A DNA stretch of 64,000 nucleotides. It comes from an uncultured Bacillota bacterium (lineage in GTDB: Bacteria; Bacillota_I; Bacilli_A; RF39; UBA660). This document shows positions 23,994-46,059 of the stretch, in pieces. Under the pieces are notes generated by a model that was given only the letters and a program-made list of their open reading frames with translations, made no database searches and was not told where the DNA came from. The DNA is taken from assembly GCA_900317975.1 (NCBI GenBank), contig ONIZ01000003.1, forward strand, positions 1 through 64,000. Reading direction: 5' to 3'. The position numbers and the translations under genes were made by a program. Positions within the stretch are counted from its first letter, which is position 1; each line of letters begins with the position of its first letter.

Positions 23994-24933
23994 AAAAAGA
24001 TTCTTCACTAATCAATTTAGCATGTACTACTTTTCTACCTTTATTATCCTCTGTACAAGTAGAAAGAGTAATTATTTTATCACTTGCACTAACAGATTCA
24101 CCAAATCCCATTGTATCTTTACTAGCAAGTCCATTTAACCAATTTTGATATTCGCTATCACTATAGAAATCAACTTGTAAATAATCTACTACAGGTTCAC
24201 TAATATAAACACTAAATATTTTATAAGTATATTTTTTACCTGGAGTCAAAACAACAATATTATGAGAAGTATTATTAAACCATTTCTTAGTAAATAATTT
24301 ACTAACACTACCAAACCCACCTTTATTCAACAGGTTATGCCCATAAAATATAACATTATTATCACTCATAGGTCTATTTCTATAATCCATAAAAATCCAA
24401 CCGTTATGAGTATATTCCTTAGTAAAATTATGAGTTAAATAGAAATCATTATCAGAAGTTAAAACAACAGGATAATTAATATTAGTACCATCTACACTAA
24501 TCCATGCAACAGTCTGTTCATTAATACTTTGTAACCAAGAAAAATCAACTTCTCCTAAACTCATTTTACTAAATCTAGCATATGAATAATCAGCAATTAC
24601 AGGCTCTTCTTGAGGTGGAGCCTCTTCTACCTTTTCTTCAACTTTAGGAATTTCATCATTTTTAGATAGATCTACAACTTTTTGTCCAGGTGTATATACT
24701 AAACTAAAAATAGTAGTAAAACTCAAAACATAAATACAAGCAAGTAATATAGCTTCTGGTCTATCCTTTTCAAGTAATTTATTAATAGGTTTATCAAACT
24801 TATTTTTAAATATCTTATTTAAAACTTTTAATATAGAAATAAGAATTGTACTAATACCTGTATAAATAATGTTAAGAATAAATGTAAAACCATTCATTGT
24901 AGTATTAAAAAGATATGCTAAAATTTTAAACAT
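23992..24933 (-). CDS. srtB: Class B sortase
   Basis: A 313-aa membrane transpeptidase. Two N-terminal hydrophobic segments (residues about 1-40 and 62-80), a Pro/Glu linker, then the sortase B core: VAWISVDGTNINYPVV, YLTHNF, GWIFMDYRNRP, catalytic His in VIFYGHNLL, catalytic Cys in TLSTCTEDN and Arg in GRKVVHAKL, all intact. The double N-terminal hairpin is longer than usual. Possible substrate: the NPVTG protein at 54016-58650 (inference). It follows a 113-aa membrane protein by 15 bases. GGTGAT ribosome site. Confidence 0.92.
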   Translation of the reverse strand: MFKILAYLFNTTMNGFTFILNIIYTGISTILISILKVLNKIFKNKFDKPINKLLEKDRPEAILLACIYVLSFTTIFSLVYTPGQKVVDLSKNDEIPKVEEKVEEAPPQEEPVIADYSYARFSKMSLGEVDFSWLQSINEQTVAWISVDGTNINYPVVLTSDNDFYLTHNFTKEYTHNGWIFMDYRNRPMSDNNVIFYGHNLLNKGGFGSVSKLFTKKWFNNTSHNIVVLTPGKKYTYKIFSVYISEPVVDYLQVDFYSDSEYQNWLNGLASKDTMGFGESVSASDKIITLSTCTEDNKGRKVVHAKLISEESF

Positions 24934-42290: not shown

Positions 42291-43475
42291 CTACTCAAAA
42301 AACTCACTCAAAGTCATAGTAACAACACTATAACCTTCTTCATTTAAGTTTAATCCATCTTTACTATATTCTTCTTTTAAATAACCTTCTTCGTCAATTA
42401 ATAAAGAATATAAGTCTATATAATTAATCTCATTTTCTTCACATAGAGCTTTAATACTTTCATTTAAATTAGATATAGTTTCATTATTTCTACTCTTACT
42501 AGTTTTTCCTACAGGAAGAACTGAAAGAACATAGATATTAGATAAACTTCTATTAGTCTTAATTTCATCAATTATACCAGTAAGATTAGTAAGAATTTCT
42601 TCATTAGTTAAACCCTTAATATAATCATTACTACCAGTAGAAATAAATACATCACTAGGATTATATACTAATACTCTATTTTTAATATTTTTAAGTAATA
42701 ATTCACTAGTATCATCTTCATCAGAAGAATTAACTACTTTATCTTCACTAATATACTTAGTTAAATCATAATTAGAAAATACATGATCACCTAAGAAAAC
42801 ATAATTCTTATCAGTAACCTTTACTTCTTTCTCAACTATCTTTTCTTTTACTTTAACTTTATTAATATCTTTTCTAAAATATAAATATGTTAATAAAGCC
42901 CCTAATAATAAGAAAAATATACATAAAAAGATTTTACCTAATACTTTACCAAAACTATGTGTTTTGATAGGTTTATCAGCTTTATTAAGGTCATCCTTCA
43001 ATTCTTTAGATTTAACTTTTCCTTCAACAAAACTAGTATCAAGAGATTGTACATCTTTTAGTCTTTTCTCATCAAAATCAAAATCATATAAATTTGTATC
43101 TCCTGTATCTTCTTCATTTTTTATTTTCTTAACAATTTCAGAAGCATCATCATCATTTATAATTCTTTCATCATTATCATATAAATCATCATCAATAGAA
43201 TCTTCATATGACTCAGTCTCTCTTGAATAATCTAAATCAGAAGAATCATCCTCTTTTATATCATCAATTATTTCTTGTGTATAATTCAATTCATTCTTTT
43301 TAACTCTACTAGTTAAAATATCTCTATCTTCATCAAGAACTCTTTCTCTAGCTTCTTCTATTAAATCTTTAGTATCATCTATGTTTTTATCAACTTTTTT
43401 AGCTACTACTTTTTTAGTAGTCTTAGTACCAGTCTTCTTAGTTGATCCTTTCTTTTTTGTTGTTTCTTTAGCCAT
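42291..43475 (-). CDS. Membrane-anchored SGNH-fold protein lacking catalytic residues
   Basis: 394 aa. A Lys/Thr-rich head, a long acidic cytoplasmic region, one membrane helix (about 177-200) and an extracellular domain (about 224-394) that reads as an SGNH/GDSL hydrolase. The nucleophile block is LGDH (His231 instead of Ser), block II lacks its Gly, block III GSND is kept (Asn283), and the catalytic block is DGLN (Asn376 instead of His). It is probably a binding protein rather than an enzyme. GGAGGTG precedes ATG 43475. Confidence 0.75.
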   Translation of the reverse strand: MAKETTKKKGSTKKTGTKTTKKVVAKKVDKNIDDTKDLIEEARERVLDEDRDILTSRVKKNELNYTQEIIDDIKEDDSSDLDYSRETESYEDSIDDDLYDNDERIINDDDASEIVKKIKNEEDTGDTNLYDFDFDEKRLKDVQSLDTSFVEGKVKSKELKDDLNKADKPIKTHSFGKVLGKIFLCIFFLLLGALLTYLYFRKDINKVKVKEKIVEKEVKVTDKNYVFLGDHVFSNYDLTKYISEDKVVNSSDEDDTSELLLKNIKNRVLVYNPSDVFISTGSNDYIKGLTNEEILTNLTGIIDEIKTNRSLSNIYVLSVLPVGKTSKSRNNETISNLNESIKALCEENEINYIDLYSLLIDEEGYLKEEYSKDGLNLNEEGYSVVTMTLSEFFE

Positions 43476-43557
43476 ATTTGCACCTCCAGACACAATCTTA
43501 ATCATAACTACATTATATACTATTTATAAATAAAAAGATATAAGTAACAAAAAAGTT

Positions 43558-43589
43558 TACAAAAAAAAAGAAATTAATCAAATTTCTTT
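43558..43589 (-). terminator. Terminator of the surface-protein/sortase operon
   Basis: 9-bp stem AAAGAAATT/AATTTCTTT (43567-43575, 43581-43589) followed by T9 on the minus strand. Confidence 0.85.
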
Positions 43590-44146
43590 TTATAATATAA
43601 AAATAATTTATAAAACATAGTATAGATAAACCAAATAAGTAATAAGAAATTACTAATTTGAACTAAACTAAGAATTGTATTATTTGTATATAATTGTTTC
43701 ATATCACTTAATTCAATTCCATTAGAAGCACTAAGAGTAACGAATAATAAGAACAAGAAATATATACCAACAAAGAAAATATAATTAAATATCTTCTTAA
43801 ACTTAGTCATTTTCTTACTAAATATAGTTACTATTATCATAATAGATATAAATAGTATTATGAAAAAATAAACTATAGTAGACGGAAAATATATATATCT
43901 CATAATATACTTGAATAGTGATCTAAAAGAATATGAAACATAATCTCCATAACTTAGAAATACTCCTAAGAATAAACCAATAAATATTGCAAAAAAGCCA
44001 ATATTTATAAATATATTTTTTCTTTTTAAATTAAGAATTAAAAGAATAAATAAAAGTAAACAAAAAACAAACAATTCTAAAGTAATATATGAAGAAAACA
44101 TATATTTAATAACAAACCACATCTTATCAAGTAAAGAACTGTTCAT
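43574..44146 (-). CDS. Polytopic membrane protein, unknown
   Basis: 190 aa with about five membrane helices (around 19-37, 46-65, 92-110, 122-140, 160-180). No motif recognised. GGGGTGA ribosome site, 13 bases after the sortase gene. Third gene of the thioester-protein/sortase operon, so perhaps a helper of display or assembly (inference). Confidence 0.7.
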   Translation of the reverse strand: MNSSLLDKMWFVIKYMFSSYITLELFVFCLLLFILLILNLKRKNIFINIGFFAIFIGLFLGVFLSYGDYVSYSFRSLFKYIMRYIYFPSTIVYFFIILFISIMIIVTIFSKKMTKFKKIFNYIFFVGIYFLFLLFVTLSASNGIELSDMKQLYTNNTILSLVQISNFLLLIWFIYTMFYKLFLYYKKKFD

Positions 44147-44159
44147 AATTTCACCCCAA

Positions 44160-44819
44160 TTATTCTAATTCTGCAACATAAATAGTTTGATGATTATCAT
44201 CATCTTTAGTACATGTAATTAAAGTAAGACAAGTCTTAGACTCATTTCTAACTACATCAACCCATCCCACTTTATCAACATTATATATATTAACAATTCT
44301 ATAATTATATACATTTCCATTATAAGTCACACTTGCTGTATCTCCAATATTTAATCTATACAAATATCTAAAATATGAATTGTAACCTGTACCTGAATGA
44401 GCAACTAATATCAAATTACCATTTTGTACATCAGGTAAATCAGATCCAGGTAAAAACATAACATTATACTTTATATCATTATATTTATTATCAGTATTAT
44501 AAAATCCTCTTTTTAAATGAACTCTAGGTATCTCTAAAACCCCTAAATATTTACTATAATCAATTGGCTCTTCAACGACAGGATCTTCCACAGTTGTAGC
44601 AACATCTTGAGTAATAGGAACATTTTCAACTACTTCGACATTCTGATCAGAAAATAATATTAACATATCAGAATAAAGGTCATTCCTAATATCAACTAAT
44701 TTAGGCCAATTAAGAACAACAATTCCTCCAAAAACAAGTAAAGAGCCAAATAACATTATCTGGCTCCTTTTTAATTTGTTTTTATTATTGTTGTGTTTGT
44801 GTTTTTTGTTTTCTAACAT
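44160..44819 (-). CDS. Sortase with Gln at the catalytic Arg position
   Basis: 219 aa as given. Basic head, one membrane helix, then the sortase barrel: VAHSGTGYNSYFRYLYRL (His141) and LTLITCTKD (Cys203). The residue expected to be Arg, four before the final VAEL, reads HQTIYVAEL (Gln211). The start at 44819 overlaps the upstream gene by 35 bases and has a poor ribosome site. An in-frame ATG at 44756 has AAAGGAG seven bases upstream but would remove the basic cytoplasmic head. Probable substrate is the protein encoded just upstream. Confidence 0.85.
   Translation of the reverse strand: MLENKKHKHNNNKNKLKRSQIMLFGSLLVFGGIVVLNWPKLVDIRNDLYSDMLILFSDQNVEVVENVPITQDVATTVEDPVVEEPIDYSKYLGVLEIPRVHLKRGFYNTDNKYNDIKYNVMFLPGSDLPDVQNGNLILVAHSGTGYNSYFRYLYRLNIGDTASVTYNGNVYNYRIVNIYNVDKVGWVDVVRNESKTCLTLITCTKDDDNHQTIYVAELE
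44741..44769 (-). promoter_or_regulatory. Hairpin masking an internal Shine-Dalgarno and ATG
   Basis: GAGCCA/TGGCTC stem (44761-44766 with 44743-44748). AAAGGAG is partly in the stem and ATG 44754-44756 is in the loop. It may modulate sortase translation or act as a weak attenuator after the surface-protein gene. Confidence 0.35.
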
Positions 44820-46059
44820 TTATATATAAGATACCTAATCCAGATAACAATACAATTAAACCAACAACATAAATTGTTCCAGAGATATCAGTAGCAGTAT
44901 CAGGTACTTTTACAATTGTAAAGTCTAAACCTTTACTAACTTCTTTTGGTATAGTGCCTAACATAGTTACAGTTTGATGTCCATCAGCTTTATAATAATA
45001 ACCACTAATTACATCAAATTTATAATTAAATACTACAGTAACATTTTTCTTTTCAGTAGAAACTGCATCTTTTGGAACATAAACTCTAAAATGATCATAA
45101 TCTCCTAGAGATATATTACTTAAATCAGTAATTTCTTTGCAATCACCACTAGCAGGGCAACCATATAATTTAGCTTTATCAATTCCACTTAATGAAGCAG
45201 ACACTACATTACTACTAGAACCTAAAGTTTCAACTGATATTTTACCAGTTCTATAGAAATCTCCAGATTCAACCCATTGAGAATTTCCTTCATTAGCAAC
45301 TCCTAAATTAATAGAAACATCATCTAAAGTTCCTTGTTTAGTTAAAGCTTCACTAACAACATCAGTAACCCCATAATGATTAAACCATGTATCTCCACCA
45401 GGGCATGTATAACTTTCACCTGCTGTAGCATCACTATCAAATACTACAGTAGAATTTATAGTACCATTATAATCATAATAAGTATCTACAGAACTATCTG
45501 TAATTTGTCCATATATTTCAGGATTTGAAGGACCAAGTTTTTGTGCTTGATATGCCCAAACAGCATTTTGTCTTACCCATGCAGCAATATCTTCTCCACT
45601 ACAAGTAGTTTGAGTACAACCAAAATTATTATTTGAACTATAATCGCTTTCAATTTGTGCACCTATTTCATCTAATCTTTGAATTAAGTATATTAATCCA
45701 ACATCGTTAATTTCATCGCCATCTTTAGTTAAAGTAACTTGTCCACCATAAACTACAGCACTCTCTAAACAAATACCACGAGCTGTCGCATTATTTTCAC
45801 CATACTGTAACTTAAACATAATAGTAGTATTAGCAGCCTGATTACCTTGTAAACGTTTATCAAATCTCAACGCATTAACACTTTCAGGTAATGTATCAAG
45901 CTTCTCATATGAATATGATGGTTTAAATGCAACTACTAATAATATTGATGCTACAGCAATAAAAGCAATTGCAAAACTTAAACCAACTGTTACATTTAAC
46001 ATATTAAATGTCTTTTTTTGTTTTTGGTTTTGATTGTTTTCCATATAAATCTTTTCCAT
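44785..46059 (-). CDS. Surface protein with thioester-adhesin-like domain and sorting tail
   Basis: 424 aa. An N-terminal hydrophobic signal/anchor (about 23-45), then a region with ARGICLES (Cys97) and WVRQNAVWAYQ (Gln164), the spacing and context of the Cys-Gln internal thioester in TQxA adhesin domains. Beta-rich repeats follow with pilin-like KVPDTATD (385-391), a membrane helix and a KQKTQTQQ tail: a non-canonical sorting signal. Likely anchored or processed by the adjacent sortase. AGGTGA four bases before ATG. Confidence 0.8.
   Translation of the reverse strand: MEKIYMENNQNQKQKKTFNMLNVTVGLSFAIAFIAVASILLVVAFKPSYSYEKLDTLPESVNALRFDKRLQGNQAANTTIMFKLQYGENNATARGICLESAVVYGGQVTLTKDGDEINDVGLIYLIQRLDEIGAQIESDYSSNNNFGCTQTTCSGEDIAAWVRQNAVWAYQAQKLGPSNPEIYGQITDSSVDTYYDYNGTINSTVVFDSDATAGESYTCPGGDTWFNHYGVTDVVSEALTKQGTLDDVSINLGVANEGNSQWVESGDFYRTGKISVETLGSSSNVVSASLSGIDKAKLYGCPASGDCKEITDLSNISLGDYDHFRVYVPKDAVSTEKKNVTVVFNYKFDVISGYYYKADGHQTVTMLGTIPKEVSKGLDFTIVKVPDTATDISGTIYVVGLIVLLSGLGILYINVRKQKTQTQQ

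Follow-up and report, generated by a model that had tools for sequence, protein, structure and literature searches.

The locus examined here raises the question of whether a sortase that carries glutamine in place of the catalytic arginine can serve as the dedicated anchoring enzyme of the surface protein encoded beside it. The locus lies in a stretch of 64,000 nucleotides from an uncultured bacterium of the GTDB order RF39, and the whole of this stretch is henceforth referred to as the window. The individual parts of the locus are of known kinds; the sortase clade, its membrane partner, the hairpin nested between the genes and the design of the operon appear to be undescribed.

Gene order and distribution of the locus

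The genes for the surface protein, the sortase and a five-helix membrane protein, and a terminator-like hairpin behind them, were all found on the minus strand in the order given by a preliminary description of the sequence (Table 1). Given an overlap of 35 nt between genes one and two and a gap of only 13 nt before the third, the three very probably form one operon. The closing hairpin was not picked up by a terminator scan that requires GC. Just downstream of the operon, at 42291-43505 on the minus strand, lies a gene for an esterase of the GDSL type, whose N-terminal part is long and acidic and which has one membrane helix; its substrates may be cell-wall or surface esters.

Table 1 Features of the operon, listed in the direction of transcription with their positions in the window.
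Feature	Position	Strand	Description or basis
Surface protein gene	44785..46059	minus	424 aa
Cys97 codon	45769..45771	minus	Predicted thioester cysteine; C in 85/86 aligned homologues
Gln164 codon	45568..45570	minus	Helix-motif Gln of TQxxPhiW; alignment and published motifs
Gln362 codon	44974..44976	minus	Predicted thioester partner, late PhiQ strand motif; Q in 85/86 homologues
Sorting motif VPDTATD	44887..44907	minus	Residues 385-391 of the surface protein
Sortase gene	44160..44819	minus	219 aa; PF04203, 62.3 bits against a cut-off of 26.6
Terminator-like RNA hairpin AAGGAGCC...GGCTCTTT	44740..44769	minus	Sortase codons about 17-27
Arg191 codon	44247..44249	minus	12 residues before the catalytic Cys; R in 129/147 Gln-type sortases
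Gln211 codon	44187..44189	minus	Universal sortase Arg position; Q in 147/165 relatives
Five-helix membrane protein gene	43574..44146	minus	190 aa
Operon-closing hairpin	about 43565-43591	minus	A/T-rich, with U run; sequence and RNA fold

The trio of genes recurs across many genera of the window's GTDB family. The sortase is conserved next to such surface proteins, so that the preliminary description is not refuted on this count. The same order, with a pyrimidine-nucleoside phosphorylase-like gene upstream, was also observed in further genomes from the genus and the family. Contamination, reported at 7% for the window's genome, was dropped as a source of the operon on the grounds that the operon order recurs in other genomes. 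In the surface protein, sortase and five-helix genes alike dN is lower than dS (dN/dS of about 0.28 for the sortase), and all three are under purifying selection.

A profile search identified relatives of the window sortase in 159 of the 193 genomes of an order sample. In class (346 genomes) and phylum (392 genomes) samples, strong sortase matches were confined to the window's GTDB family, as was the five-helix protein, which was found in 11 of 247 class genomes. A scan of genome contigs gave two relatives. Those relatives that are named are MAGs recorded as uncultured Erysipelotrichaceae with RUG isolate names, from which the source habitat is taken to be, probably, the rumen. For RF39-type bacteria a thin peptidoglycan wall has been predicted (PMC10868615), and the two PBP-type transpeptidase genes of the genome are consistent with a cell wall.

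A sortase clade with glutamine at the arginine position

The window sortase comprises an N-terminal membrane anchor, His141, a conserved Arg191, Cys203 (within LTLITC, which matches the TLxTC motif) and Gln211 where Arg is expected. All known sortases are stated to use His-Cys-Arg (PMC8361268, PMC13257024), and Arg mutants of known sortases lose their activity (PMC13257024). The replacement of the catalytic Arg by Gln, first pointed out in the preliminary description, is present and proved to be a clade-wide trait. Gln occupies the Arg position in 147 of 165 non-redundant relatives, a fraction that describes the clade and not sortases at large because the relatives were chosen by similarity to the window sortase. 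Most of the others are ordinary sortases with Arg from the same genomes; the rest comprise two with His, one with Arg (L069) and a few that are unclear. The catalytic His is invariant in all 165 relatives, and the catalytic Cys in the 164 where it could be aligned. In a phylogenetic tree the Gln sortases cluster apart from the Arg sortases of the same genomes, with the Arg-bearing L069 inside the Gln group; several branches of this tree are long, so that its fine branching is unsure. Judged from these sequences, the loss of Arg is not decay.

The register of Gln against Arg is secure because Gln stands at Cys+8, where both L069 and S. pneumoniae SrtA (CEDLAATER; PMC8361268) have their Arg, and because Gln211 stands at the start of the strand across from the Cys strand in the sortase model, which is of moderate quality (pLDDT 56). 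Three related sortases, L069 with Arg and L208 and L223 with Gln at the catalytic site, are encoded next to genes for VirD4-like coupling proteins, an arrangement like that of conjugative elements; a search of viral contigs for relatives gave one sortase, L069. The window itself contains a further sortase gene at 24013-24501 on the minus strand, between rseP-like and priA-like genes, whose product has the usual Arg (STCTEDNKGRKVVHA) and is probably a class B-type enzyme.

Glutamine is an uncharged hydrogen-bond donor, and in papain a Gln side chain contributes to the oxyanion hole. The conservation pattern suggests that the Gln-type sortase is probably active without Arg. A phrase search of open-access papers returned no report of sortases lacking Arg, and a literature search on citrulline-substituted sortase found nothing. 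An inactive or very slow clade, whose members would escort or hold the adhesin while another, Arg-type sortase anchors it, would agree with the essential role of Arg in tested sortases (PMC13257024) and with the presence of further sortases in the genome, including the Arg-type enzyme at 24013-24501. This explanation is quite improbable, as a dead enzyme would not need the His and Cys that are invariant over 164-165 relatives, and both the dedicated pairing with VPxT proteins and the purifying selection on the sortase stand against it.

The position of Arg191 suggests a variant of the preferred reading, an active sortase without the usual Arg, rather than a full alternative to it. Here the function of the lost Arg would have passed to Arg191, in the region of strands 6 and 7, and Gln211 would be structural. 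Such a relocation would account for the retention of Arg191 in most Gln-type sortases, and the Arg-type L069 has Lys at that site. However, 18 of the 147 Gln-type sortases do without Arg191 (11 of them having Lys), whereas Gln is nearly fixed, and the beta6-beta7 loop is known to set P4 specificity (PMC8361268), so that Arg191 may serve recognition instead. Relocation is considered unlikely, and from its conservation Arg191 is best described as a candidate residue either for substrate recognition or for replacing the lost Arg.

The C-terminus of the surface protein carries the VPDTATD motif, helix and charged tail noted at the outset. Among proteins encoded beside Gln-type sortases, V takes the first place of the putative VPxT signal in 107 of 128 and L in only one, whereas the proteins next to ten Arg sortases from these genomes begin the signal with L in six cases and M in two ([LM]PxT in 8/10). 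Although the preliminary description called the motif non-canonical, VPDT is not exotic: in the pneumococcal pilin RrgC the signal reads VPDTG (PMC5640630). The S. pneumoniae pilus-1 system resembles the window locus in that a VPDT-type signal is used by a sortase (PMC5640630); its sortases, in contrast, are described as class C enzymes that build pili, and no pilus genes were seen in the window operon. The co-evolution of enzyme and motif that had been proposed is borne out as joint variation but not as causation by Gln: because both traits follow one clade boundary, the association of Gln with VPxT is a correlation and no proof of causation. Arg191 was also considered as the residue reading the Asp of VPDT, and no association was obtained (P 0.29).

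By fold and homology the window sortase is placed in the sortase superfamily, as a variant that is not claimed to be catalytically canonical. Its modelled fold matches the class C sortase 3tbe with a Z score of 15.0. With class C and D sortases it shares this fold, the His-Cys pair, the TLxTC motif and the membrane anchor; it differs from them in the Gln for Arg, the VPxT signals, the five-helix partner and its failure to reach any class model. Of the class-specific NCBIfam models (classes A-F), none reached its cut-off, the best being class C with 54.3 against 160. The locus could in principle combine an ordinary class C- or D-like sortase with an ordinary LPxTG-like adhesin, with Gln as drift and VPDTG as a known variant, as the RrgC signal and a match above cut-off to the generic sortase model TIGR01076 would allow. 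That combination is very improbable, given that class-specific models are not reached and that near-fixation of Gln over a clade is unlike drift.

The five-helix (5TM) gene follows the sortase gene in 97 of 102 loci of the main clade and in 0 of 29 of the sister group, which substantiates the five-helix protein as a conserved operon partner in the main clade. Its YxYFPS motif is conserved, with Y-F-P nearly invariant, and falls in a predicted outer loop; the positive-inside rule would place the Y-F-P motif outside the membrane, where the sortase domain is expected too. No known family in Pfam, NCBIfam or PDB was matched at useful scores, which does not imply a new fold. Presentation of a substrate or precursor to the sortase is a guess at the partner's role. 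The five-helix proteins of L001 (G000:C58), L053 and L099 have a long C-terminal tail (to over 400 aa), which is probably cytoplasmic. A second group of Gln sortases, found in L135, L137, L127, L147 and others, has the sequence TCRHNTNKQ and no five-helix gene; the partners of this group are large multi-domain TED/CnaB-type proteins of at least about 830 aa, cut short by the ends of the loci.

Likely domain class and predicted thioester residues of the adhesin

The predicted layout of the surface protein runs from an N-terminal signal or anchor helix through Cys97, a helix motif, a beta-sandwich and Gln362 to the VPDTATD sorting signal. PF08341 (Pfam TED) was matched by 15 of 26 homologues, while the window protein fell below the TED cut-off and matched no Pfam family. 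Together with the conserved pairing, these matches uphold the original view of a TED-like surface protein with a sortase of its own. The genome contains three further TED genes, two of which lie beside related Gln-type sortases.

The AlphaFold model of the adhesin was poor (mean pLDDT 41, from a three-sequence alignment). Its better-modelled part, residues 266-384, gave as rank-1 PDB match 6fwy, the class II TED of Enterococcus faecium TIE86 (Z 6.6, rmsd 2.5, 80 residues). The predicted order of strand, helices, beta sandwich and late strand agrees with class II, in a model that is poor and leaves the late strand unresolved. On this structural comparison the adhesin is likely a class II-like TED. 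It has in common with the class II TIE/TED adhesins BaTIE, SaTIE and EfmTIE86 (PMC4450167, PMC6194298) a signal peptide, a C-terminal sorting signal, a YC-type motif, a TQxxPhiW helix and, in its predicted layout, a beta-sandwich between the helices and the late Gln strand. Unlike these adhesins, it has no isopeptide stalk, is adjoined by its own dedicated sortase and scores below the Pfam threshold. The spacing of Cys and Gln is also wider, at 265 residues; it is 171-204 in two class II TEDs from the literature that were compared and 188 as modelled in TIEpLS20. The pLS20 TED adhesin of B. subtilis (PMC8092201) is likewise a class II TED with Cys and a late Gln, but it is not anchored by a sortase and serves conjugation.

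Cys97 and Gln164 had been put forward as the thioester pair. Both residues are present, but the placement of Gln164 as the bond Gln was rejected, as it occupies the TQxxPhiW position (context WVRQNAVWAY). The bond Cys of known TEDs belongs to a strand motif of the [YFL]C type, and their bond Gln to a late beta strand whose PhiQ motif is weak (PMC4450167, PMC6194298); the TQxxPhiW Gln on the central helix was dispensable for the bond in a Cpa-TED mutant (PMC4450167). The late Gln of the window protein is Gln362 (context GHQTVTM).

These residues were compared in an alignment of 87 proteins taken from beside related sortases. The helix Gln is kept in 86 of the 87 and the W of its motif in 79. 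The sole exception to both Cys and late Gln among 86 aligned homologues is L118 (G088:C2:59158-64769), which has Ala for Cys and Asp for the late Gln and retains the helix Gln; L130, conversely, lacks the helix Gln and has both Cys and the late Gln. Because of these two losses, each a single event, the pairing of Cys97 with Gln362 is favoured, and the two are the predicted internal thioester pair. Two details of the window protein depart from the published motifs. Its Cys motif is ICLE, with an Ile that is outside the published [YFL]C-Phi-zeta set (the preceding residue in homologues is mostly Y, F, L or I), and its helix motif is RQNAVW, with R replacing the T of TQxxPhiW. L118 represents a natural thioester-null adhesin that is still encoded beside its sortase.

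The junction hairpin and the proposed display mechanism

A terminator-like hairpin that the preliminary description had overlooked lies about 16 nt past the stop codon of the surface-protein gene, inside the sortase gene. The scanned region contained one such site against a shuffle mean of 0.7; since a single site is no more than chance would give, the case for the hairpin rests on comparison. A 36-nt window at or below -9 kcal/mol was found at 83 of 134 junctions (62%), compared to 5.5% of control windows from the same genes (P 2e-32, a value that ignores relatedness). Across 59 distinct homologous stems, pairing is kept in 93.9% of cells, and 8 of the 10 pairs are altered on both sides, although the stems were preselected for pairing, which inflates the paired percentage and may raise the other counts, and relatedness inflates them as well. 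None of 500 shuffles was as high as the observed stem pairing and covariation. Synonymous recoding weakens the fold; for 85 of 147 genes, the natural sequence was more stable than each of 20 recodings. The hairpin is absent in part of the 5TM clade, and L113, L117 and L175 have unrelated stem sequences at the same junction position.

From its sequence the element looks like an attenuator. The U run after it is short and the stretch that follows is U-rich. The simplest reading would be a leaky terminator, by which adhesin is made in preference to enzyme. According to one report (PMC4824070), the ribosome that translates a gene represses a terminator lying a few bases past it, and sortase expression may thus be tied to translation of the adhesin. 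A likeness is found in the attenuation of S. gallolyticus Pil1 (PMC3894217), where the distance between terminator hairpin and stop codon sets expression of the adhesin operon. The Pil1 hairpin, however, lies upstream of the whole operon, whereas the window hairpin lies between adhesin and sortase, within the sortase coding sequence. Alternatively, the hairpin could be an mRNA-processing or translation-coupling element between the two genes and no terminator at all. The shortness of the U run would fit such a role, as would the start of the sortase gene ahead of the adhesin stop codon, which brings the ribosomes of both genes to overlap nearby; the stem, its position after the stop codon and the U-rich stretch behind it are like those of an intrinsic terminator. 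This alternative is a tangible but on balance doubtful one.

With the leaky-terminator reading retained, it is probable that the locus as a whole is a dedicated surface-display operon. Its first gene would supply a secreted adhesin with a class II-like thioester domain as its body, in which Cys97 and Gln362 would form an internal thioester able to react with target amines. The adhesin would be tagged by VPDTA instead of LPxTG, and the membrane-anchored sortase would cut this signal after Thr and link the adhesin to peptidoglycan precursors. His141 and Cys203 would carry out this reaction, with Gln211 as an uncharged hydrogen-bond donor at the place of Arg, perhaps aided by Arg191, while the five-helix partner might present the substrate or precursor. 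The hairpin in the first sortase codons, acting as a leaky terminator, would cause adhesin to be made in excess of enzyme. The more specific proposal, a large clade of active His-Cys-Gln sortases in which Gln gives the transition-state hydrogen bond and which is paired with VPxT-tagged thioester adhesins, the two sharing an attenuator nested in the sortase gene, has about an even chance of being correct.

A natural clade without Arg makes the role of the supposedly universal sortase Arg directly testable, and Gln sortases may be protein-ligation enzymes with another substrate preference (VPxT). The locus also indicates that regulatory RNA can hide within the codons of a membrane anchor. In the organism itself, a member of an uncultured order of Bacilli that probably inhabits animal guts, it couples an adhesin predicted to act covalently with a dedicated anchoring enzyme.
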